33,384 nt of DNA from a virus. The position numbers and the translations under genes were made by a program. The notes below the pieces were generated by a model. The model saw only the letters and a program-made list of their open reading frames with translations, had not been told where the DNA came from and ran no database searches. This document shows, one piece after another, positions 17,605 through 29,091 of this stretch (its first letter is position 1; each line of letters begins with the position of its first letter). The stretch lies in the IMG/VR virus record IMGVR_UViG_3300037882_004058, positions 1 through 33,384 of that record, one strand, 5' to 3'.

Positions 17605-18408
17605 TTACAATTTATTTATTAGTTTGTATTTTCTTACTTTGAAATCTTCTACATCCAGAATCAAATCCTTATATTTCTTAAATAAAAAATCAATACCTTT
17701 CGGTGAAACTAATGTGTTGTATCTTGGAATAAACTCACCATTTTTATAAGTTCCTTTCCCATCCTGTAGGCAGGTCTTAAATCTATCATTGTCTATATTA
17801 GGGCGATATGGCTCATTGTGCTGATTAAGTATCCCATCTTTTCTCAACATTGCCATAAATTTACTTCTGCCTAAACCTGGGACATTGAATAGATCAGCGA
17901 CTTGCTTGAAATTAAAATATCCTTCATTTTCGATAAAAGCATCATAAACTTCACCCTTGGGCTTTAGCTCTTTAACTTTTTGTTCCGCTATCTGTCTAGC
18001 TTTATATTGCTCAGCCCAAGCAATAGCTGATTCAGCAGGGTCAAGAAAATTTGGAAGTGTTAATGAATTTCGTAAACGATTTTCCATTTCATTGAAAGCG
18101 TAAATAAATGCTTCTTTAAACATTGCTGCTTTCTTTCCAGTAAAGCCCATAACTATGAAAGAAAAACCGTCTCTAGTCATAAAAAAGTATGGTCTTGGCT
18201 TATCTTGCGTATCTTTATAATGGGCCAGCCGAAAATTCGTCCGGCTAAAATTTTCGCTAAAATCACCACTTTTAATGGAATCTAAAACATGTTTGTGAAG
18301 TTTTCCAAATTCATTGGCTACATCTAAACTTGAGGCAAAAATATCACCATCTTTCACCTGAAGTAGCTCAACGAAACGTTCTTTTAATAAAATCAATTCA
18401 TTGTTCAT
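17605..18408 (-). CDS. Rha-family phage regulator with KilAC-like C-terminus (rha1)
   Basis: The product is 267 residues from ATG 18408; a TTG at 18417 would be the only upstream alternative. Residues ~20-112 match the pRha domain: ASSLDVANEFGKLHKHVLDSI and PYFFMTRDGFSFIVMGFTGKKAAMFKEAF. Residues ~165-250 form an antirepressor C-terminal (KilAC-like) module: FNFKQVADLFNVPGLGRSKFMAMLR and YNTLVSPKGIDFLFKKY. Such proteins regulate phage gene expression, often as DNA-binding antirepressors. The gene lies 26 bases after the U-run of a ~130-nt structured RNA and is followed by a terminator, so it forms a stand-alone unit. A paralog with the same RNA upstream is at 28312. Confidence 0.85.
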   Translation of the reverse strand: MNNELILLKERFVELLQVKDGDIFASSLDVANEFGKLHKHVLDSIKSGDFSENFSRTNFRLAHYKDTQDKPRPYFFMTRDGFSFIVMGFTGKKAAMFKEAFIYAFNEMENRLRNSLTLPNFLDPAESAIAWAEQYKARQIAEQKVKELKPKGEVYDAFIENEGYFNFKQVADLFNVPGLGRSKFMAMLRKDGILNQHNEPYRPNIDNDRFKTCLQDGKGTYKNGEFIPRYNTLVSPKGIDFLFKKYKDLILDVEDFKVRKYKLINKL

Positions 18409-18433
18409 TTTAATCAAATTTTAAATTTTTGAC

Positions 18434-18566
18434 AAAAAAAAGCCCCAAAGCTTTTTGGGGTTGCACATTGTATCATCACTGATTCAAATTTTCCCAATGC
18501 TTTGAGGCATTATATCTTAAAATTGATTAAAATGAATATTTTTAATCAGTGTCTTCAACAATGTGC
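18434..18566 (-). ncRNA. Structured pseudoknot RNA, copy 3 (leader of rha1)
   Basis: Minus strand, 5' to 3'. P1 is GCACATTGT (18566-18558) with ACAATGTGC (18471-18463). P2 is CACTGATT (18551-18544) with AATCAGTG (18484-18477). A local hairpin GATTAAAA/TTTTAATC follows P2. The apical loop has GCCTCAAAGC (18508-18499), which pairs with GCTTTGGGGC (18451-18442) outside the stem, making a pseudoknot. GGG (18495-18493) can extend it with the CCCC at 18460-18457. The same CCCC can instead form a local hairpin, CCCCAAA/TTTGGGG, followed by U8 (18441-18434), a classic terminator. All helices recur with different bases in copies 1 and 2. Confidence 0.8.
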
Positions 18567-18584: not shown

Positions 18585-18884
18585 TTATTTTAGCACATCT
18601 TTAAATTGATCATACATATTGTCTTCACAAATGTATTCAACATTGAATCTGCTTATATCGTAAAATCTAGGATTTGCGGCATTACCAATTGTCCTGAAAC
18701 ATCCTTCCAATCCGTTTTTACAAGTAACATCTTTCAAATAAAGCGCTGGAAACAAGCCAGCTCCCAATGGCTTTATCCAAAAAACTCTTTGATGAAAATC
18801 ATCAAAGTTACCAGCATTCTCCGCTGCGAATTGGGTGTAATGCTGGAACTTTAATTTTACCTCAATAAATTCAGGCTTGCTCAT
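18585..18884 (-). CDS. Small hypothetical protein at end of accessory operon
   Basis: The 99-residue product contains FQHYTQFAAENAGNFDDFHQ, three Cys and a mixed alpha/beta pattern. No known domain is evident. Its ATG overlaps the stop of the upstream helical transferase-like gene by four bases (ATGA), so they are co-translated and it might be an accessory subunit. The RNA copy 3 promoter begins just past its stop. Confidence 0.55.
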   Translation of the reverse strand: MSKPEFIEVKLKFQHYTQFAAENAGNFDDFHQRVFWIKPLGAGLFPALYLKDVTCKNGLEGCFRTIGNAANPRFYDISRFNVEYICEDNMYDQFKDVLK

Positions 18885-19897
18885 TTCTTTGCGTATTTAG
18901 ACCAGTCGTACTTTTTCCTTTGTTTTCCAACCTTATTCAGCATTTTCCAATACTTTGAAAATTCGCAGCAAAACATTTCTATTTGGTGCAAGCTGATATT
19001 ATTCCCCTTATTTGCATAATACCCCCGCTTTCTATCCCATTCAAGGTATTTAAAATCATCAGGCAAATATTCATTACTCATGTCTCTCAAGTCATGAATC
19101 CTTTGCCTCTGATCCTTAGCGAGGGTTGAAGGAAAAATCAATCTAATACCCAAACTACAACCTGGCCCAACATTAGTAAAATCATTCTCATCCCACCTCA
19201 TTATCGCCCCAGTCGGACTATATCTTTCAAAGTAACAGAGTGAAATATACATCTCATGACTCACAAATTCAGCTATTGCTGGCAGGGTCATTAAATGCTT
19301 TATAAACTCTTCCGGTTCCTTTGCCGTCTTCAGCGTTTTAAAGACGTTCTCAGCTTCTTTATGCAAAGTCGCTATAATCTTAAAAGCGTAGCATTTATCC
19401 CTTTTCTCATTGGGGCAGCATGCTGTATTAATAAGATATGCAGACGTATAAGGATTATTACCCGTCTTGCGATAATTTAAAAGGTTGGCAAAATAACGAG
19501 CCTTATTGAATTCTTCACGAGTGGGGAGAGCGTTTTTGAATCGTTCATTTTTGGAATAGAACTCAAAAAACTTTGGCTCATTCATAAGCCTGAAAAAGCA
19601 TATCATCCAGAACTTTTCGATTTCTGTAATGTCTTTAGGCTTGATTATATTCTCAATTTCCCATTGGCTGTTGCGGTCTAATTCCCGATAAACATGAGTG
19701 AAATTGTAATCTCTTAGGATTTCGTTTTCACTCCAAGGCGCTGGAAGCTTTAGAATGTTTCTTCGATACCAAATCTCTTGTCTTTCATGCATCATATCGA
19801 AGAACGTCTTCAAGTATTCCTCGTTGACTTCTTGTGTTACAGGTGGAAGAAGAACTTCCCAGGGAGCATTGGAACCGCTTGAACTTTTATATTTCAT
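18881..19897 (-). CDS. HMUDK helical-domain protein (putative DNA thymidine-hypermodification enzyme)
   Basis: This 338-residue protein carries FDMMHERQEIWYRRNILKLP and PWSENEILRDYNFTHVYREL followed by DRNSQW (~33-78). The W-Y-x-R, P-W-x-x-D/E-x-I-L, and F-T-x-V-Y-R-E-L-D-R pattern is what I associate with the '5-hmdU DNA kinase helical domain' family, which is related to the alpha-glutamyl/putrescinyl thymine pyrophosphorylase (HhH glycosylase-like) proteins. In other phages these act on 5-hydroxymethyl-dU in DNA. Here the domain stands alone, while a P-loop kinase is encoded at 29288. The assignment is from motif memory; no search could be run. It overlaps its neighbours by four bases on both sides. 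Confidence 0.65.
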   Translation of the reverse strand: MKYKSSSGSNAPWEVLLPPVTQEVNEEYLKTFFDMMHERQEIWYRRNILKLPAPWSENEILRDYNFTHVYRELDRNSQWEIENIIKPKDITEIEKFWMICFFRLMNEPKFFEFYSKNERFKNALPTREEFNKARYFANLLNYRKTGNNPYTSAYLINTACCPNEKRDKCYAFKIIATLHKEAENVFKTLKTAKEPEEFIKHLMTLPAIAEFVSHEMYISLCYFERYSPTGAIMRWDENDFTNVGPGCSLGIRLIFPSTLAKDQRQRIHDLRDMSNEYLPDDFKYLEWDRKRGYYANKGNNISLHQIEMFCCEFSKYWKMLNKVGKQRKKYDWSKYAKK

Positions 19898-20133
19898 ATT
19901 CTTACTTCTTCTGATTCAAATGTAAAGGGAAAACCTGTATATGAAGCAACTGTGCCTTTATTTGTTTCCAAATAAACTGTAGGAATCTTATCATCTTCTC
20001 TGGTATATAATTTTTCAATTATTTCGTTTTTACCATTTAATGTATGATAATTTTCTCCAACTTCTTTTGTAATTGTGTCTCCATCTGGTAGATAAATTCT
20101 AACCTTATGATTAGTGTAAGCTGCTTGTGCCAT
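19894..20133 (-). CDS. Small hypothetical protein (79 residues)
   Basis: The product (MAQAAYTNHKVRIYLPDGDT start) is beta-rich and charged, with no recognised motif. It overlaps both neighbours (start 23 bases inside the upstream gene, stop overlapping the next ATG), which supports it being translated in the accessory operon. Confidence 0.5.
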   Translation of the reverse strand: MAQAAYTNHKVRIYLPDGDTITKEVGENYHTLNGKNEIIEKLYTREDDKIPTVYLETNKGTVASYTGFPFTFESEEVRI

Positions 20134-20407
20134 TTTGTATTTGTTTATTAACTCTTTGAAATGCGTTTGGCTTAAAAAACCAAACCTTTATCTTTTCTTC
20201 TTCATCAATATCTTCAATCGCAATTCCAGTGTCTTCAAAATAAGTTCTTTGTCTAACAGTCTCAAGAAGAGAAAAAGGTTCAGATGATTCAGATGGAAAG
20301 AAAAGATGAGTAAAACCATTACCATTAAGGTGCCCAAACAAATGAGCTAACAAAGTTTGTCTATAAAGAGCCTTTGAATTCCTCAAAACTTTTGATTCTT
20401 TTTTCAT
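20111..20407 (-). CDS. Small hypothetical protein (98 residues)
   Basis: The product begins MKKESKVLRNSKALYRQTLL and contains HLFGHLNGNGFTHLFFPSES, a His- and Phe-rich segment, followed by an acidic C-terminal half. No known family is recognised. It overlaps the upstream gene by 47 bases and the downstream one by 23, typical of this compact operon. Confidence 0.45.
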   Translation of the reverse strand: MKKESKVLRNSKALYRQTLLAHLFGHLNGNGFTHLFFPSESSEPFSLLETVRQRTYFEDTGIAIEDIDEEEKIKVWFFKPNAFQRVNKQIQNGTSSLH

Positions 20408-20705
20408 AGATTGCTAAAATTGCATCGTATTTTTCTTGACATTCTCTCATTTTTTGATTTATTCTGGCCTTAACTAAGGTCTTACAAAGAGGTTTATCCA
20501 TGCAAATGAAAACCTGGTAAACTTGGCTTTCTTTGTTTATATAAGTGTATAAAGCCCAACCTTGCTTTTCAATCTCTTCCTTCTCCATTATTGCCTGCTC
20601 GACTAGATACCTACTATCACTGGCAAATATGTATTTTTCATCTCTTCTGAGGGCGAATCTAAGCAGACTAACAAACCCTTTATTCATATTTCCTATTGGT
20701 TCCAT
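20361..20705 (-). CDS. Hypothetical protein (114 residues)
   Basis: The product contains RDEKYIFASDSRYLVEQAIM and a helical, Lys/Glu-rich C-terminus. The ATG at 20705 lies inside the upstream gene. An internal ATG at 20687, preceded by AGGAAAT, would give 108 residues and may be the true start. No function can be read from it. Confidence 0.5.
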   Translation of the reverse strand: MEPIGNMNKGFVSLLRFALRRDEKYIFASDSRYLVEQAIMEKEEIEKQGWALYTYINKESQVYQVFICMDKPLCKTLVKARINQKMRECQEKYDAILAIYEKRIKSFEEFKGSL

Positions 20706-21679
20706 CCGTACTCTTTTTTATAACGTTTAACTATTTGTTCTAAATCTATGGAATGAACTTTGTTTCCAAGTTCTACAAAATCTAAAAATTCACAAGCGAC
20801 AAATTTATTTTTCTTTCCTTTTAAAACGCCATCCATACCTTCAACTTTTGTAAGGACAATTTTTTGTTTAGGGAAACCAGCATTCTCAAACATTTGGTGT
20901 AAATAACCAGAACCGCCAACAACACTTTTTAAAGCATACAATTCATCAATATCATGACCGATGTAATACTTGCCGTTGCGAATTTTATGCCACTTGCAAA
21001 AACAAGTTTCAATCTCACCAATATCGAATTTATATGATTTAGCCAGTTCATGACCGAACTTATCCCAACCTTCAAAATCATATTGAGTCCATTTTCTACT
21101 TTCTCCAAACAAATGTCTTAAACCAGCTACTGGGCCATCATTGCTATTGGGATCGCGACCTTCTAAACCTAGATCATTAATTTTCAGATTGTTATATCCA
21201 AATGCTTTTTCCAGCACTTCTGCAATCTTGAATGCGCTCCAAACTCCATGGTTATACTTGCCTGCGATAAGCAAACGAAGGTCTTTATTAGTTAACCTTG
21301 AAATCTCTGGCAAATAGCGATTATCAGACTGGTCACACATGGGGATAATAACGTCCATAATGGCTCTAACCATTGTATCAACTTGACGTTGCTTTCCCCT
21401 TCTTTCTATTCCAAAATGAGTAAATGTGCTTTCTCGCAACTTGCGAAATGAAGATTCCTTGAATGATTTGGAGGTTGGGAACCGATTGCAAAACAATATT
21501 GCTGATTCAAGGGAATAGAACAAAACATAGATAAAAGTAAACCAAACAGGGTCTACCTCATCTCTGTAATACTTATCCACTTTAAACAACCCCTTTCCAA
21601 TAAATGGATAAATAGGGTCTACGTCCTTAGACATAACTAGATTTCTAGCGAATCTATCAAATTGGGTATATTTATTCAT
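20693..21679 (-). CDS. Putative AADT / aGPT-PPlase clade 2 (amino acid:DNA transferase in thymidine hypermodification)
   Basis: The 328-residue protein begins MNKYTQFDRFARNLVMSKDV followed by DPIYPFI. The pattern 'R-N-x-x-M-x-K-D-V-D-P-x-Y-P' and the helical body (VWFTFIYVLFYSLESAILF; GKYNHGVWSAFKIAEVLEKA) resemble the alpha-glutamyl/putrescinyl thymine pyrophosphorylase clade 2 proteins. These were later shown to attach amino acids to phosphorylated 5-hmdU in phage DNA (amino acid:DNA transferases). A late segment (CFCKWHKIRNGKYYIGHDID) supplies possible active-site Cys/His/Asp residues. If correct it would act after a hmdU DNA kinase and before the FAD enzyme at 22617. The match is recalled, not searched. 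Confidence 0.55.
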   Translation of the reverse strand: MNKYTQFDRFARNLVMSKDVDPIYPFIGKGLFKVDKYYRDEVDPVWFTFIYVLFYSLESAILFCNRFPTSKSFKESSFRKLRESTFTHFGIERRGKQRQVDTMVRAIMDVIIPMCDQSDNRYLPEISRLTNKDLRLLIAGKYNHGVWSAFKIAEVLEKAFGYNNLKINDLGLEGRDPNSNDGPVAGLRHLFGESRKWTQYDFEGWDKFGHELAKSYKFDIGEIETCFCKWHKIRNGKYYIGHDIDELYALKSVVGGSGYLHQMFENAGFPKQKIVLTKVEGMDGVLKGKKNKFVACEFLDFVELGNKVHSIDLEQIVKRYKKEYGWNQ

Positions 21680-21690
21680 TGGTGAGTTTT

Positions 21691-21725
21691 AAAATAAAGA
21701 AAGGAACGGTTTTAGTCGTTCCTTT
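21691..21725 (-). terminator. Terminator within accessory block
   Basis: On the minus strand AAAGGAACG (21725-21717) and CGTTCCTTT (21708-21700) form a 9-bp stem with an 8-base loop, followed by CTTTATTTT. It divides the FAD-oxidoreductase segment from the AADT-like segment. Readthrough or an internal promoter is needed for the genes that follow. Confidence 0.75.
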
Positions 21726-21737
21726 TAAAAATATTGA

Positions 21738-22196
21738 TTAGTCTTGTTCTTCTTGCTGATCTTTGAAATCTTCAGGGTCAAACTCTGTTTTAGTTTCACA
21801 TGTCGAAAATGGATGATTAAATACAGGAGTCCCAGTCGTTATAAAATCTTGTGTTCTGAAATAAGGGTCTTTCCAATGTGGCTCATCTCCAACACGAAAT
21901 GGCGGCTTTAATTCATCAGGTGTAATGGGAATTATTGCAGGATAACCATTAATTTCTTTTGTAGGTTGCCAACGATATTCCTTACCTTTGTTTTCTTCCA
22001 TAATTTTCTTCCATCTTTCAGTAAATTCTTCCATTACTTCTGGGCGAATCTTACCTGCAATTTCAGAAATTCCATAAATCCCATAATGAGATAAATTATG
22101 TTCTTCAGCCCATTCAGCAATTTCCTTTACACTGCTAAATTTTTGATCGTTAGCTAGAATGATAGCTTTATTGTCTGTGTCTATTGTGAATTTCAT
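21738..22196 (-). CDS. Hypothetical protein (152 residues)
   Basis: The product begins MKFTIDTDNKAIILANDQKF, with a helical segment (VKEIAEWAEEHNLSHYGIY) and a Pro-rich, acidic C-terminal half (PHWKDPYFRTQDFITTGTPV). No family is recognised. It overlaps the upstream membrane protein gene by four bases and is followed by a terminator. Confidence 0.5.
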   Translation of the reverse strand: MKFTIDTDNKAIILANDQKFSSVKEIAEWAEEHNLSHYGIYGISEIAGKIRPEVMEEFTERWKKIMEENKGKEYRWQPTKEINGYPAIIPITPDELKPPFRVGDEPHWKDPYFRTQDFITTGTPVFNHPFSTCETKTEFDPEDFKDQQEEQD

Positions 22197-22468
22197 ATCG
22201 AATTAATTATATGTGCATTAAAATCAACTATTTCATCAAAAATACCTTTCGGATTAATCAAAGGCTTAGATGGCTTTTGAAATTTAATCAAATCAAACCA
22301 TATTAAGTCAATGAACTGGAAAACTATGCACAATCCAACAAATACAAATGACAATGGTATGTTCAAAATAACAAATAAAATCATTAAGCAAATTTTCTTC
22401 AAGAAGACAAATATCCTAAAGAAAAACCCCACAAAATAATAAACCAACAGATATTGTATTTTTTTCAT
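22193..22468 (-). CDS. Small membrane protein with hydrophobic segments
   Basis: The 91-residue product is strongly hydrophobic over its first ~65 residues (YLLVYYFVGFFFRIFVFLKK then MILFVILNIPLSFVFVGLCI), giving two or three likely transmembrane helices, with a soluble tail. It is coupled by ATGA to both neighbours. Its role is unknown; inner-membrane localisation is expected. Confidence 0.55.
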   Translation of the reverse strand: MKKIQYLLVYYFVGFFFRIFVFLKKICLMILFVILNIPLSFVFVGLCIVFQFIDLIWFDLIKFQKPSKPLINPKGIFDEIVDFNAHIINSI

Positions 22469-22620
22469 TCTTCATAAATTTTTTCTTCGTCACCAAATCT
22501 GCAATCTTCACATTCAATCAATCCGTCAATCTGATTATAATTCTCATCAAAGACATAAAAGAAATAACACTTTTTAGTTTCATTGCAAAACGAGCAAGTT
22601 TTTTCTTCAGCTTCTTTCAT
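22465..22620 (-). CDS. Zinc-ribbon-like 51-residue protein
   Basis: ATG at 22620 overlaps the stop of the FAD gene (ATGA), and its stop overlaps the ATG of the next gene (ATGA at 22468). The product contains C-S-F-C and C-E-D-C, with a further Cys in KKCYFF, a pattern of a small zinc ribbon. Both overlaps strongly support a real gene. It may bind nucleic acid or a partner protein; its function is unknown. Confidence 0.7.
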   Translation of the reverse strand: MKEAEEKTCSFCNETKKCYFFYVFDENYNQIDGLIECEDCRFGDEEKIYEE

Positions 22621-23591
22621 CTTCTCCCCATTAAACGTTTCCATAATTCATCTGCCATCCATCCTGCCAATGCTGAAGTGTTCTTTCGTCCTCCTGTTGC
22701 TGAAAACAACCCGTGCTCATAAATCCGTATAAAATCCCCTTTCTCTGTATATGGGCGTATTCCCTCGTTAATCCTCAAAACCTTTTCTTGTGGAAGAGAT
22801 GACATTATAATTGCATTGAGGTTATTATGCAATCTTTCGGTAAATTTCTCTAATCTTGCGTCATCAACTCCTTTAGGATTCTTTACTGTATTCCCGTCGC
22901 TGAATCTTACAAATCCTGGAAACTGCATAAGAAGAGAGTGTTTGTAAGGTGCCCAAGTGCCAAATCTGTTCTCCTCTAATTTCAGTTTAAGATCATAATT
23001 TGCACCCCAATAAGCATCAATATGAGGAGCCTGATTTTCGTATCCAGATTCACAAAGTAGTTTTTCCGTCCAAGCGCCTGCGGCTACTACAACTGCATAG
23101 GAGGCTGATAGTTGTCTCTTAATCGTTCTGCCCTCTTCCTTATCCTTAAAACTAACTTCGACCGTCCTATCACCAACTCTCAGCACACTAGCGGGAAAAT
23201 ACGGTTCGGTTAAAACCTTCGCAGGATTAATAAAGTAAAATTCTTTCTCAGCGTAATCTTCAGTATCCATATTAACAGCAGTTATTCTATCAATATCAAT
23301 ACCTATCTCACTCATTACTGAAAAAGAAGTCCTTGCCCTTTCAAGGTCATCACCTAACCAACCGTCAGAAGTCACACCCACTGAGCATTTAGAAGCAGAC
23401 CATTTTTGCTCCTTGTCGATGAGAAGAACGCTCACACCTCTGTGTTCAAATACTTTCTTAATCATGCATCCAACCAATCCGGCACCCACAACTATAACTC
23501 CATAGTGATCTTTGGATGCGTCTGGCCAAGAAACCCGTTCTCTGGGGACGGTGGGTGAAATAGGAGAGTAATTATTGTTTTGTTTATCCAT
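22617..23591 (-). CDS. FAD-dependent oxidoreductase (DAO / glycine-oxidase-like)
   Basis: The 324-residue protein starts at ATG 23591, which overlaps the stop of the preceding small gene (TAATG); the longer upstream reading belongs to another frame. GVIVVGAGLVGC (residues ~31-42) with Asp59 in VLLIDKE is the Rossmann FAD-binding motif. VVVAAGAWTEKL and GLFSATGGRKNTSALAGWM are typical D-amino-acid/glycine-oxidase-type segments. It probably oxidises an amine or amino acid with FAD. In phages with thymidine hypermodification, flavin enzymes trim amino acids attached to the base. Since AADT-like genes lie nearby, that is an attractive role, though free-amino-acid metabolism is possible. Confidence 0.78.
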   Translation of the reverse strand: MDKQNNNYSPISPTVPRERVSWPDASKDHYGVIVVGAGLVGCMIKKVFEHRGVSVLLIDKEQKWSASKCSVGVTSDGWLGDDLERARTSFSVMSEIGIDIDRITAVNMDTEDYAEKEFYFINPAKVLTEPYFPASVLRVGDRTVEVSFKDKEEGRTIKRQLSASYAVVVAAGAWTEKLLCESGYENQAPHIDAYWGANYDLKLKLEENRFGTWAPYKHSLLMQFPGFVRFSDGNTVKNPKGVDDARLEKFTERLHNNLNAIIMSSLPQEKVLRINEGIRPYTEKGDFIRIYEHGLFSATGGRKNTSALAGWMADELWKRLMGRR

Positions 23592-23770
23592 TACGTTAAA
23601 ACTTTTACTAACCAATAAGTAAATGCAATCAAACTGATAATAAATAAAGCCAGCCATCTATTCGGCCATTTATCCATTTCAACTTGGTGCTTAAGTTTTC
23701 TTTCGAGCATGTTTACATCATGCTCTAATTCTATGTCATAGAATCTTTCTCTGAATTCTTCTTCTGTCAT
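23591..23770 (-). CDS. 59-residue single-span membrane protein
   Basis: ATG at 23770 overlaps the stop of the preceding gene (ATGA), and its TAA overlaps the ATG of the FAD gene (TAATG). The product has an acidic/charged N-terminus (MTEEEFRERFYDIELEHDVN) and a hydrophobic segment (WLALFIISLIAFTYWLV), giving a tail-anchored look. These couplings support a real gene. Its function is unknown. Confidence 0.7.
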   Translation of the reverse strand: MTEEEFRERFYDIELEHDVNMLERKLKHQVEMDKWPNRWLALFIISLIAFTYWLVKVLT

Positions 23771-24081
23771 GGCAATTGAGGTTCTTCAAAGTGTTCAAAC
23801 ATTAAGCGAGAATATGCCTGGAGAGCTAAGCGAATATGTTTCTGTATGATTTTTTCAACAGCTTCCCTCGCTTCCGCTTCTATTTCTCTGGCTCCTGATT
23901 CAATGTGTGAAGTATCAACTCCGTTAGTCATTTTTACACAAAAATAATATCTTCCTTCGTTATCATTATCGTCATCATCCACAAAATCAAATTCAATCTC
24001 TCCGAATATCTGGAAGCCGTTGACAGCGAGAGTTTTGAATTTTAGACTTTCAACAGTGTATTCCCAAATTAAATTCTTCAT
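23767..24081 (-). CDS. Hypothetical protein (104 residues)
   Basis: The product has an acidic stretch (DFVDDDDNDNEGRYYF), beta-strand segments at each side, and a C-terminal amphipathic helix (AREAVEKIIQKHIRLALQAY). No named family is recognised. It is followed without a gap by the 59-residue membrane protein. Confidence 0.5.
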   Translation of the reverse strand: MKNLIWEYTVESLKFKTLAVNGFQIFGEIEFDFVDDDDNDNEGRYYFCVKMTNGVDTSHIESGAREIEAEAREAVEKIIQKHIRLALQAYSRLMFEHFEEPQLP

Positions 24082-25192: not shown

Positions 25193-25639
25193 ATGCAAAA
25201 TTCAACAAATGTTATGAATAGCCCAGATATTTTAAAACTTTCAATTGAAATGATTGATTTATTTAAAAAGACAGCAGACCTAAAAAATGAGATCAATGAA
25301 TTAAAAAAAGAAATTTCTGAAATAAAATCACAAAAACAAAATATAAATATTTATAAAAATATTAAAGATTCAATAACAATTACGCAAATGTCTCAAATTT
25401 TAAAAGCCGATAAAATATTATTCATTGAATGGTTGAGAAACAATAATTATTTGAAAAGAGGCAATGCTAAACGTAATCTCAATTTACCTTACAGAAAATA
25501 TAGACATTTTTTCCTTGTTAGGTCTTATTATAAAAATGACAAAATAGTCAAGCAAACTCTTTTCACACCTGAAGGTGTAAGATATTTTATTCAGCTTAAG
25601 ATGGATGGTTTAATGCAGGAAAATTTTTACACTGATTGA
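25193..25639 (+). CDS. Stand-alone KilAC-like (antirepressor C-terminal domain) protein
   Basis: The 148-residue product has an N-terminal coiled coil (~15-50, LKNEINELKKEISEIKSQKQ) followed by a domain with TITQMSQILKADKILFIEWL, YLKRGNAKRN and TLFTPEGVRYFIQLK. This follows the same plan as the C-terminal ~85 residues of both Rha proteins in this window (Q-M-A/S-x-x-L ... F-x-x-x-L-R ... V/T-P-x-G-I/V). The Rha DNA-recognition half is absent. It could bind the same partner or site as the Rha C-termini and modulate them. It is the first rightward gene and ends at a clear terminator. Confidence 0.65.
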   Translation: MQNSTNVMNSPDILKLSIEMIDLFKKTADLKNEINELKKEISEIKSQKQNINIYKNIKDSITITQMSQILKADKILFIEWLRNNNYLKRGNAKRNLNLPYRKYRHFFLVRSYYKNDKIVKQTLFTPEGVRYFIQLKMDGLMQENFYTD

Positions 25640-26991: not shown

Positions 26992-27543
26992 ATGATAAAA
27001 ATGAAAACACTCTTCAAGAAAGACCCTAATGATCTTGGAAGAGTTATTGATGAGATTGACCCCGAAAATATGTGGGTCTTTGATGAAGGCGTAATTGCAA
27101 CCCGAAAGTGGGATGGTACGGCTTGTATGATTAAAAATGGGGTTCTTTACAAGCGATATGATGCGAAGAAAGGCAAAACACCACCACTTGGGTCTATTCC
27201 CTGCCAACCTAAACCCGATCCTATTACTGGACATTGGCCACATTGGGTAGCGTGTAGACGAAGTGACGCAGCAGATATATATCACTGTGAGGCATTTGAT
27301 AAGTTTCAACATTGGTATGACGGCACATATGAATTGTGTGGTCCAAAAATAAATGGTAATAAGGAAAAACTAACAGAGCATATTTTGAAACCGCATGGTG
27401 ACGTATGGATTAATTTATCGCAAATTAATTTCCAATACATAAAGAACCGACTGGAAGAAGCTGAAATGGAAGGTTTTGTCTTCCATCACCCGGATGGGCG
27501 TATGTGCAAGATCAGAAGGAGTGATTGGGGATTTGAATGGTAA
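26992..27543 (+). CDS. RLIG1/DUF5565-like RNA ligase
   Basis: The 183-residue protein has the nucleotidyltransferase motif I in TRKWDGTACMIKNGVLYKRY (adenylated Lys39 in K-x-D-G). The segment DAKKGKTPPLGSIPCQPKPD and PITGHWPHW follows, then motif III-like TYELCGPKINGN, motif IV EGFVFHHPDG and motif V CKIRRSDWG. The combination with the G-K-T-P-P and P-D-P-x-T-G-H-W-P stretch resembles DUF5565, whose human member C12orf29 (RLIG1) is an ATP-dependent 5'-3' RNA ligase. The phage version probably repairs cut RNA such as tRNA. It starts at 26992, or at the internal ATG 27001. Confidence 0.7.
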   Translation: MIKMKTLFKKDPNDLGRVIDEIDPENMWVFDEGVIATRKWDGTACMIKNGVLYKRYDAKKGKTPPLGSIPCQPKPDPITGHWPHWVACRRSDAADIYHCEAFDKFQHWYDGTYELCGPKINGNKEKLTEHILKPHGDVWINLSQINFQYIKNRLEEAEMEGFVFHHPDGRMCKIRRSDWGFEW

Positions 27544-27969: not shown

Positions 27970-27982
27970 ATTTTATTAGGCT

Positions 27983-27988
27983 TATACT
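27983..27988 (+). promoter_or_regulatory. TATACT box before RNA copy 1
   Basis: CTTATACTGTTTTGCG contains TATACT and then TGTTTTG just before P1. The same block precedes the other two copies, so it is probably the promoter -10 region. Confidence 0.55.
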
Positions 27989-27993
27989 GTTTT

Positions 27994-28125
27994 GCGTACA
28001 ATTGTAAAACAGTATTTTTAGGCTAGGAATTAAATCTTTCATAAAATATAGAAAGCTCCAAGACTTAGGGACAACTGTTTTACGACATTGTACGCAACCC
28101 TAAATATCTTGGGGCTTTTTTTTTT
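27994..28125 (+). ncRNA. Structured pseudoknot RNA, copy 1
   Basis: P1 is GCGTACAA (27994-28001) with TTGTACGC (28088-28095). P2 is GTAAAACAGT (28004-28013) with ACTGTTTTAC (28074-28083). The loop contains CTTTC/GAAAG and then AGCTCCAAGA (28054-28063), which pairs with TCTTGGGGCT (28107-28116). TTAGGG (28065-28070) pairs with CCCTAA (28098-28103), extending the pseudoknot. Alternatively CCCTAA pairs locally with TTGGGG to make a terminator hairpin before T10 (28116-28125). Sequence differs widely from copies 2 and 3, but every helix is kept. Confidence 0.82.
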
Positions 28126-28138
28126 ATTTTATCAGTAT

Positions 28139-28144
28139 TATAAT
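28139..28144 (+). promoter_or_regulatory. TATAAT box before RNA copy 2
   Basis: TATTATAATGTTTTGC carries a perfect TATAAT six bases before the first base of P1. This spacing suits transcription starting at the G of P1 (28150). Confidence 0.6.
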
Positions 28145-28149
28145 GTTTT

Positions 28150-28281
28150 GCACATTACTTTTCAACCTTTAAGGTTTAAAGCGAAAAAATTTAAAAAGTT
28201 GATAAATATAATGCCTCAAAGTGAAAGACTTTTATCAAGGTTGATTGGTAATGTGCAGGTCTCAAGCTTTGGGGCTTTTTT
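28150..28281 (+). ncRNA. Structured pseudoknot RNA, copy 2 (leader of rha2)
   Basis: P1 is GCACATTAC (28150-28158) with GTAATGTGC (28248-28256). P2 is TCAACCTT (28162-28169) with AAGGTTGA (28237-28244). P3 is TTGATAAA (28199-28206) with TTTATCAA (28231-28238). A TTTAAA hairpin lies between P2 and P3. GCCTCAAAG (28213-28221) in the loop pairs with CTTTGGGGC (28267-28275) outside P1; AGAC (28226-28229) and GTCT (28259-28262) extend it. CTCAA/TTGGG can form a weak local terminator hairpin before the T-run. The 16 bases ATATAATGCCTCAAAG are identical to copy 3, while P1/P2 differ. Confidence 0.85.
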
Positions 28282-28311
28282 ATTTTTATAACTTTTTAAA
28301 TTTAAAATCAA

Positions 28312-29091
28312 ATGTCAAGTACAGCTATTTCTTTATTCACCAAGAAGGTATTGGAATCCTTTAAAGTAGAAAATTCAGAGGTTTACACAACCAGTAGAGA
28401 TGTTGCCTTCTTCTTTGAAAAGCTCCACAAAGATGTTTTAAGATTAATCGACAATGCGGATTTTAGCGATGATTTTAATCAGCGTAATTTTACGCTGATT
28501 AAAAATTTAGACTCTAGGGGTAGAGAACAACCTGAATATCTCATGACTCGTGACGCATTTTCTTTCATAGTTATGGGATTCACTGGAAAGAAAGCAGCAA
28601 TGTTTAAAGAAGCATTTATTTCCGCCTTTAATCAAATGGAAAAAGAATTACGAGAATCAAAAGTTGTCAAGGCTCCAGACAATCTTTATGATGCCCTTAA
28701 ACTTTCACTCACTCTCCTCGAAGAAAATTTAGACCTCAAAGAAAAATTAAGACTAGCGGAAGAAGAAACAGAGATGTTAGAAAAGAAAGCGGCTAAATTT
28801 AAAACCAAAGCAGAAACATTGGATGTATTGACGGATGCGGATAGATCAATATCAATGGGGCAAATGGCAAAGACTTTAGGCTTTGGAAGAAATAGATTTA
28901 TGGCATTTCTAAGACAAATCGAATACTTGGATAAGTACAATGTTGCTTATGAATCCAGAAGAAAGTATTTTAATGTTATTCAAAAGAAATTGAAAAGAGA
29001 AAAGTTCCAAACAGTAACTCTAATAAATTCAGTGGGTATTGCTCATTTCGGCAGAATGAAATTAAGAGGAATATTTGAAGAACTGATTTAA
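28312..29091 (+). CDS. Rha-family phage regulator with KilAC-like C-terminus (rha2)
   Basis: The 259-residue protein is a paralog of rha1. The Rha domain is at ~18-110 (YTTSRDVAFFFEKLHKDVLR; EYLMTRDAFSFIVMGFTGKK), with MGFTGKKAAMFKEAFI identical in both copies. A coiled coil follows (~120-165), then the KilAC-like part (~178-259, MGQMAKTLGFGRNRFMAFLR; LINSVGIAHFGRMK). It is preceded by two tandem copies of the pseudoknot RNA; the 30 bases between the last U-run and the ATG have no Shine-Dalgarno site. The 5' leaders of both rha genes share AAATTTAAAAT. A 14-bp palindrome lies within codons ~54-65. A terminator follows it. Confidence 0.88.
   Translation: MSSTAISLFTKKVLESFKVENSEVYTTSRDVAFFFEKLHKDVLRLIDNADFSDDFNQRNFTLIKNLDSRGREQPEYLMTRDAFSFIVMGFTGKKAAMFKEAFISAFNQMEKELRESKVVKAPDNLYDALKLSLTLLEENLDLKEKLRLAEEETEMLEKKAAKFKTKAETLDVLTDADRSISMGQMAKTLGFGRNRFMAFLRQIEYLDKYNVAYESRRKYFNVIQKKLKREKFQTVTLINSVGIAHFGRMKLRGIFEELI
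28473..28504 (+). repeat. Perfect 14-bp inverted repeat inside rha2
   Basis: TTTTAATCAGCGTA (28473-28486), loop ATTT, TACGCTGATTAAAA (28491-28504), within the coding sequence for DFNQRNFTLIKN. It could be a DNA operator for autoregulation or an mRNA hairpin. The right arm ACGCTGATTAAAAAT matches 14 of 15 bases of ACACTGATTAAAAAT in RNA copy 3 (5' arm of P2). Confidence 0.7.

Follow-up and report, generated by a model that had tools for sequence, protein, structure and literature searches.

We analysed a virus record of 33,384 bases (the whole stretch, hereafter the window) and found that it carries three RNA elements built on one plan. We read these elements and their relatives in other phages, with a probability of about 0.77, as C4-like antisense RNAs that lie on the same strand as the next gene, just upstream of it, and would block its translation. 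This reading draws on RNA structure, covariation, complementarity between RNA and cognate target, and concerted change of RNA and target, all of which are visible in the sequences.

The window probably derives from a Bacteroidota phage, because the top match of its portal protein by coverage was Chryseobacterium phage MA9V-3 (35% identity). The preliminary description had reported three copies of about 130 nt, and our sequence check upheld their coordinates, copy number and pairings. Copy 1 (c1, 27994-28121, plus strand) was identified by sequence, fold, a covariance model match of 45.9 bits and a detector score of 56, and copy 2 (c2, 28150-28281, plus) and copy 3 (c3, 18436-18566, minus) by sequence, fold, covariance model, detector and alignment. 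The common plan consists of helix P1 (9 bp), helix P2 (8-10 bp), a loop strand, a 3' helix and a U tract. In c1, P1 is formed by 27994-28002/28087-28095 and P2 by 28004-28011/28076-28083, the loop strand 28055-28064 pairs with 28106-28115, and the U tract starts at 28116. The corresponding parts of c2 are P1 28150-28158/28248-28256, P2 28162-28169/28237-28244, loop strand 28213-28222 with 28266-28275, and U tract 28276-28281; those of c3 are P1 18566-18558/18471-18463, P2 18551-18544/18484-18477, loop strand 18508-18499 with 18451-18442, and U tract 18441-18436. The loop strand GCYYCAA can pair with a 3' TTGGGGC in every copy, and the pattern GCYYCAA-N35-65-TTGGGGCTTTTT matched the record at exactly these three sites.

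The proposed position upstream of rha genes was borne out, as c2 and c3 directly precede Rha-KilAC genes recognised by Pfam and c1 lies just before c2. The 3' end of c2 is about 30 nt upstream of its predicted target, a rha-KilAC antirepressor gene at 28312-29091 (plus; PF09669, 2.5e-26; PF03374, 1.5e-11). At a similar distance from c3 lies another, the predicted c3 target at 17605-18408 (minus; PF09669, 6.6e-26; PF03374, 7.9e-14), for which the start is TTG at 18417 in the ORF list, with an ATG at 18408. A block resembling a promoter, TTATA..TGTTTT, directly precedes c1 (27982-27993, plus) and c2 (28138-28149) and, with a 1-base shift, c3 (18578 downward); the motif scan found one other site in the window, and the block would serve as the promoter of each element. 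Elsewhere in the window, a third antirepressor-like gene with the KilAC domain alone (25193-25639, plus) has no RNA element upstream, and an RNA ligase gene (PF17720 RLIG1; phrog_14301) is located at 26992-27543 (plus), two genes upstream of c1. Thymidine hypermodification genes occupy 18881-23657 (minus) and encode a 5-hmdU DNA kinase (PF18723), an amino acid:DNA transferase (PF18724) and an FAD-dependent oxidoreductase, which makes hypermodification of the phage DNA probable.

The structure of the elements was assessed by folding, covariation and a pseudoknot-terminator detector, which looks for a stem crossed by a terminator helix. Each copy folded better than 200 of 200 dinucleotide shuffles (z -6.4, -3.7 and -4.7 for c1, c2 and c3). 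Across the whole window, the detector placed c1, c2 and c3 at ranks 1-3 with scores of 56, 47.5 and 46.5, followed by 44 (complementary strand of the same region) and 42.5, and 0 of 300 shuffles of each copy equalled its score. The covariation claimed for P1 and P2 was confirmed: all 17 pairs form in every copy and 13 of them are changed on both sides, which 0 of 500 shuffles reproduced, in an alignment of three paralogues only that was fitted to the structure. We take P1 and P2 as secure, and the sequences support the crossing helix well.

The 3' end requires a more careful description. The extensions of the pseudoknot helix reported before are indeed complementary, but with TTAGGG/CCCTAA in c1 the gap to the P2 3' strand would shrink to ACA (3 nt), which makes it hardly possible for P1, P2 and the fully extended pseudoknot to form together. 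According to MFE folds of c1, c2 and c3 alike, a local terminator hairpin can take up the 3' GGGGC strand instead. Because of this hairpin in all three copies and the short spacing in c1, we regard the pseudoknot and the plain terminator as alternatives, and the 3' end of the window elements as a choice between folds rather than one static pseudoknot. In L050, a further element accepted from our scans, the loop pairs with the 3' strand over 14 contiguous pairs including 3 G-U, and no local terminator hairpin is evident. A structured class with covarying helices is supported, but to define it first of all as pseudoknotted would claim too much. What its members have in common is a loop or P1 arm that matches the start of the next gene, together with a long-range 3' helix that runs into a U tract.

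The preliminary description rightly saw a structured class upstream of Rha-KilAC genes, but it gave no function and missed the antisense complementarity. We scored local base pairing, with small bulges allowed, between the apical loops and the start regions of the two rha genes. The c2 stretch AAATTTAAAAAGTTGATAAA (28187-28206, plus) pairs with the leader of its rha gene, TTTATAACTTTTTAAATTT (28285-28303, plus), ending 9 nt before the ATG (score 34; 4 of 2000 shuffles), and the c3 stretch TTCATTTTAATCAATTTTAAG (18516-18536, minus) pairs with the start region of the other gene, including its ATG (18404-18425, minus; score 37.5; 8 of 2000 shuffles). Each loop fitted the start region of its own rha gene only, cross-pairs being at background level. 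When both window strands were scanned, the cognate start region was the best complement of c2 and of c3 after the opposite strand of the element itself. The complementary stretches are nearly all A/T, and RNAduplex energies failed to separate targets because they allow long internal loops; local pairing with shuffles was used instead. For c1, the pairing scan found no start-region target on either strand of the window. The reverse complement of its loop, TTTTATGAAAGATTTAATTCC, looks like a gene start absent from this fragment, and a 30-nt search of phage records gave matches at chance level only. A gene without known function at 23767-24081 (minus) can pair through its first 16 nt with the c1 loop at 14 positions, at a score of 24, near background.

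Starting from Rha genes of other Bacteroidota phages, we found relatives with the same plan and unrelated sequence, and, as had been predicted, these elements also lie upstream of Rha or KilA-N genes. They come from a faecal phage (L221), Bacteroidales genomes (L305, L306 and L309), IMG/VR contigs (L335 and L420), two Porphyromonas gingivalis prophages (L452 and L453, of F0570 and KCOM2797) and another faecal phage (L454). The elements lie 19-58 nt from the next ATG, on its strand. The next gene is Rha or Rha-like at seven loci (two in the window, L050, L221, L305, L306 and L335), a count of target types biased by sampling from Rha genes; it is a KilA-N gene at L420, an 87-aa ORF preceding rha at L309, and a gene for a small uncharacterised protein without Pfam match in the P. 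gingivalis prophages and L454. Exact TAnnTTTG promoter boxes lie 11-14 nt upstream of P1 in six relatives, and a short hairpin, GGGC-U-rich-AUGCCC, is common to L221, L306, L335, L420 and L452-L454.

The antisense strand is the apical loop in the window copies, and in the relatives it is the P1 3' arm, set against the start of the next gene. This pairing starts at the U of AUG and runs for 10-15 nt in one register in L305, L306, L335, L420 and L309; in L221 it covers 11 nt before the AUG, and in F0570, KCOM2797 and L454 it includes an AUG and spans 12-19 nt. The P1-arm score was reached by 0 of 2000 dinucleotide shuffles for L305, and by 0 for L306, 2 for L335, 0 for L420, 13 for L309 and 0 for L221. 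No shuffle out of 1000 reached the score for F0570, KCOM2797 or L454, nor for the second copy in KCOM2797. Cognate scores in the relatives were prominent, whereas non-cognate scores were not. L050 showed no convincing start-region target by pairing scores. The window and Bacteroidales subfamilies are alike in plan and position, and may be analogous rather than of one origin, because they share no sequence and differ in the antisense strand (loop versus P1).

RNA and target also change in concert. L306, L335 and L420 have one common 3' helix (GTAACGTG/CACGTTAC) and three different P1s, each fitting its own target. The RNAs of F0570 and KCOM2797 differ at 12 positions, all within P1 or P2. Four of these lie in the P1 3' arm, with four counterparts in the P1 5' arm and another four in the target. 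KCOM2797 carries a second RNA about 1.2 kb further on, before a paralogous gene; the two cognate pairs scored 32 and 31 against 14.5 and 12 for the crossed pairs, so each RNA fits its own gene only. In the record of P. gingivalis phage023a (BK068104), two paralogous RNA-gene modules occupy about 40807-42190, and a CDS annotated there on the minus strand (41951-42124), which the second RNA overlaps, may be spurious.

We then compared the elements with known systems. As a control, a blind antisense scan of 153 Rha loci ranked enterobacterial loci on top, and the Rfam C4 antisense RNA (RF01695) was present in the two top loci tested (L272, 81.9 bits; L226, 78 bits), indicating that the method finds the best-known system of the same kind. 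In the first of these loci, DicF, isrK and C4 RNAs lie within about 500 bases (925-1404). C4, of phages P1 and P7 and of enterobacterial prophages, is encoded just before an antirepressor gene on the same strand, is antisense to the region where translation of that gene starts, and has alleles that define specificity (PMC12197685). Its immunity role in P1/P7 is credited to Citron and Schuster (1990), as cited in PMC2864571. Our elements resemble C4 in their same-strand position upstream of an antirepressor gene and in being antisense to the start region. A same-strand antirepressor gene follows c2 and c3 (Rha-KilAC), L221, L305, L306 and L335 (Rha) and L420 (KilA-N), whereas a different gene comes next at L309 and in the P. 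gingivalis prophages. Start-region complementarity is present in c2, c3, L305, L306, L335, L420, L309, L221, F0570, both copies of KCOM2797 and L454, but not in c1 or L050. Unlike C4, the elements belong to a different phylum and have different promoters, their P1 is crossed by a long-range U-tract helix, and their antisense strand is the P1 3' arm or the apical loop. The RF01695 covariance model matched neither the window elements nor the relatives, and the Bacteroidota elements are therefore not of the C4 family.

Type III antitoxin RNAs (ToxI and its kin) are pseudoknotted phage or plasmid RNAs upstream of a gene, with a terminator between, and consist of short repeats in tandem to which a ribonuclease toxin binds. 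The window elements share with them a pseudoknotted RNA upstream of a gene, but their units are about 130 nt, the downstream genes are Rha-KilAC, no ToxN-like ribonuclease adjoins, and the pairing is antisense to mRNA. The sar RNA originates in the arc-ant spacer, on the strand opposite to ant. In phage P22 its pairing with ant mRNA prevents translation of the antirepressor (PMC12197685). The RNA genes described here differ from sar in lying upstream of the target and on its strand.

The statement that the elements belong to no known family held, as there were 0 Rfam matches in the window at the gathering score and nothing relevant at relaxed E-values, and the same was true of the relatives. 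We found no published description of such RNAs in the open-access literature. A covariance model built from c2 and c3, with c3 junction lengths edited to align, found c1 at 46 bits and L050 weakly, but in 395 Bacteroidota genomes it gave one chance match. Scans of viral and genome contigs for GCYYCAA...TTGGGGC gave matches that were nearly all chance, L050 being the sole acceptance. A search of IMG/VR for portal relatives gave none, and Chryseobacterium phage MA9V-3 has no such element. No clear members besides those named were found upstream of about 80 Rha genes of a first IMG/VR set, the 153 of the combined set, or the Rha genes of Fusobacterium and Bacteroides phages; about 20 weaker Rha-like matches and about 28 KilA-N genes in Bacteroidales genomes added no further clear members. 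Before rha in Bacteroides phages B40-8 and BF766P1 there is a 17-bp hairpin, AATGCCTC.../...GAGGCATT or GGGGCATT, whose loop can pair further upstream. This long hairpin with a crossing loop is possibly a related regulator; it was not counted, antisense not being evident. Upstream of a Bacteroidales KilA-N gene (L446), complementarity to the start (score 37) occurs with a local hairpin and no crossing helix, and may represent another kind of antisense leader.

In the C4-like reading, each element would be a gene for a small RNA of about 100-180 nt, whose transcription would start at its own promoter just before P1 and stop at the long-range 3' helix and U tract. The antisense strand (apical loop in c2 and c3, P1 3' arm in most relatives) would pair with the translation start of the next gene, usually an antirepressor gene (rha or KilA-N), and block ribosome entry and initiation. 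P1 and the target would compete for the antisense arm. P1 self-pairing often equals or exceeds target pairing in strength, so target binding may need P1 opening, and the similar energies would make the lock adjustable. From these features we infer RNA production, repression, action in trans and a role in lysogeny or immunity. By analogy with C4 of P1/P7, the RNA would be a private, sequence-addressed brake that keeps the antirepressor silent in the lysogen and sets immunity specificity.

A cis-acting leader or attenuator is possible, if doubtful: transcription would proceed from the promoter of the element in the direction of the next gene, the 3' helix or hairpin would terminate it and, in read-through, the antisense strand would mask the start codon in cis, with no RNA acting in trans. 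The same-strand position 19-58 nt before the ATG, the two alternative 3' folds of the window copies, the tandem elements preceding the rha gene at 28312, and the P1 5' arm and target as alternative, switch-like partners for one strand would all suit such a leader. However, the strong U-tract ends suggest a finished short RNA, c1 is followed by c2 with its own promoter-like block and has no match to the gene, and C4, which the scan also found, is a same-strand upstream RNA acting as antisense (PMC12197685).

The uncharacterised P. gingivalis targets indicate that antirepressor control is not universal. Together with the small target of L454, which contains a hydrophobic stretch, and the MazF-like and HicAB-like genes nearby in the KCOM2797 record, they would fit a general antisense lock on harmful phage genes, akin to type I toxin-antitoxin systems, with antirepressors as one target class. 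We consider this unlikely, given the Rha or Rha-like genes at seven loci and KilA-N at L420, although that count is biased by the Rha-based search.

The window copies and L050 have the core GCYYCAA/TTGGGGC in common, and this conservation, the alternative folds and the tandem arrangement could point to an RNA that senses a protein or ligand, in the manner of a riboswitch or through autoregulation by Rha; a factor bound to the core would then select the pseudoknot or the terminator. However, relatives that precede similar genes have a wholly different core (GTAACGTG/CACGTTAC, GGCGGTTGCC/GGCAGCCGC and GGTAGGGG/CCCCTACC) and keep complementarity to the next gene, which makes a sensing RNA improbable; the riboswitch reading was dropped once the cognate complementarity emerged. 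Chance complementarity, frequent in A/T-rich DNA, or mere duplication of the gene start, which P1 5' arms copying the target start would resemble, is scarcely credible and already contradicted by the shuffle controls (counted per comparison), by orthogonality and concerted change, which are independent of those counts, and by complementarity kept after both partners diverged.

Returning to the C4-like reading, we give even odds to a broader proposal, that the elements form a widespread Bacteroidota phage RNA class in which P1 is a swappable address, the 5' arm copying the start of the next gene and the 3' arm being antisense to that start. A phage could then carry several orthogonal locks, and swaps would create immunity groups, in a C4-like manner on a different scaffold.

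Bacteroidota phages are common in the gut and mouth, and little is understood of their immunity and antirepressor control. The elements represent a previously uncatalogued structured RNA upstream of control genes in these phages, which probably silences the next gene as C4 does. With such RNAs, the sequence by itself gives a prediction of the silenced gene and of the phages that should share the silencing or escape it; the two P. gingivalis prophages, in which address and target are swapped, offer a natural experiment that is already at hand. As a new family, these RNAs would be known by RNA-mRNA covariation rather than conserved sequence, and ordinary covariance-model searches miss families of that kind. 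If the reading is true, swaps of address and target between alleles would make new immunity groups on a non-C4 scaffold.
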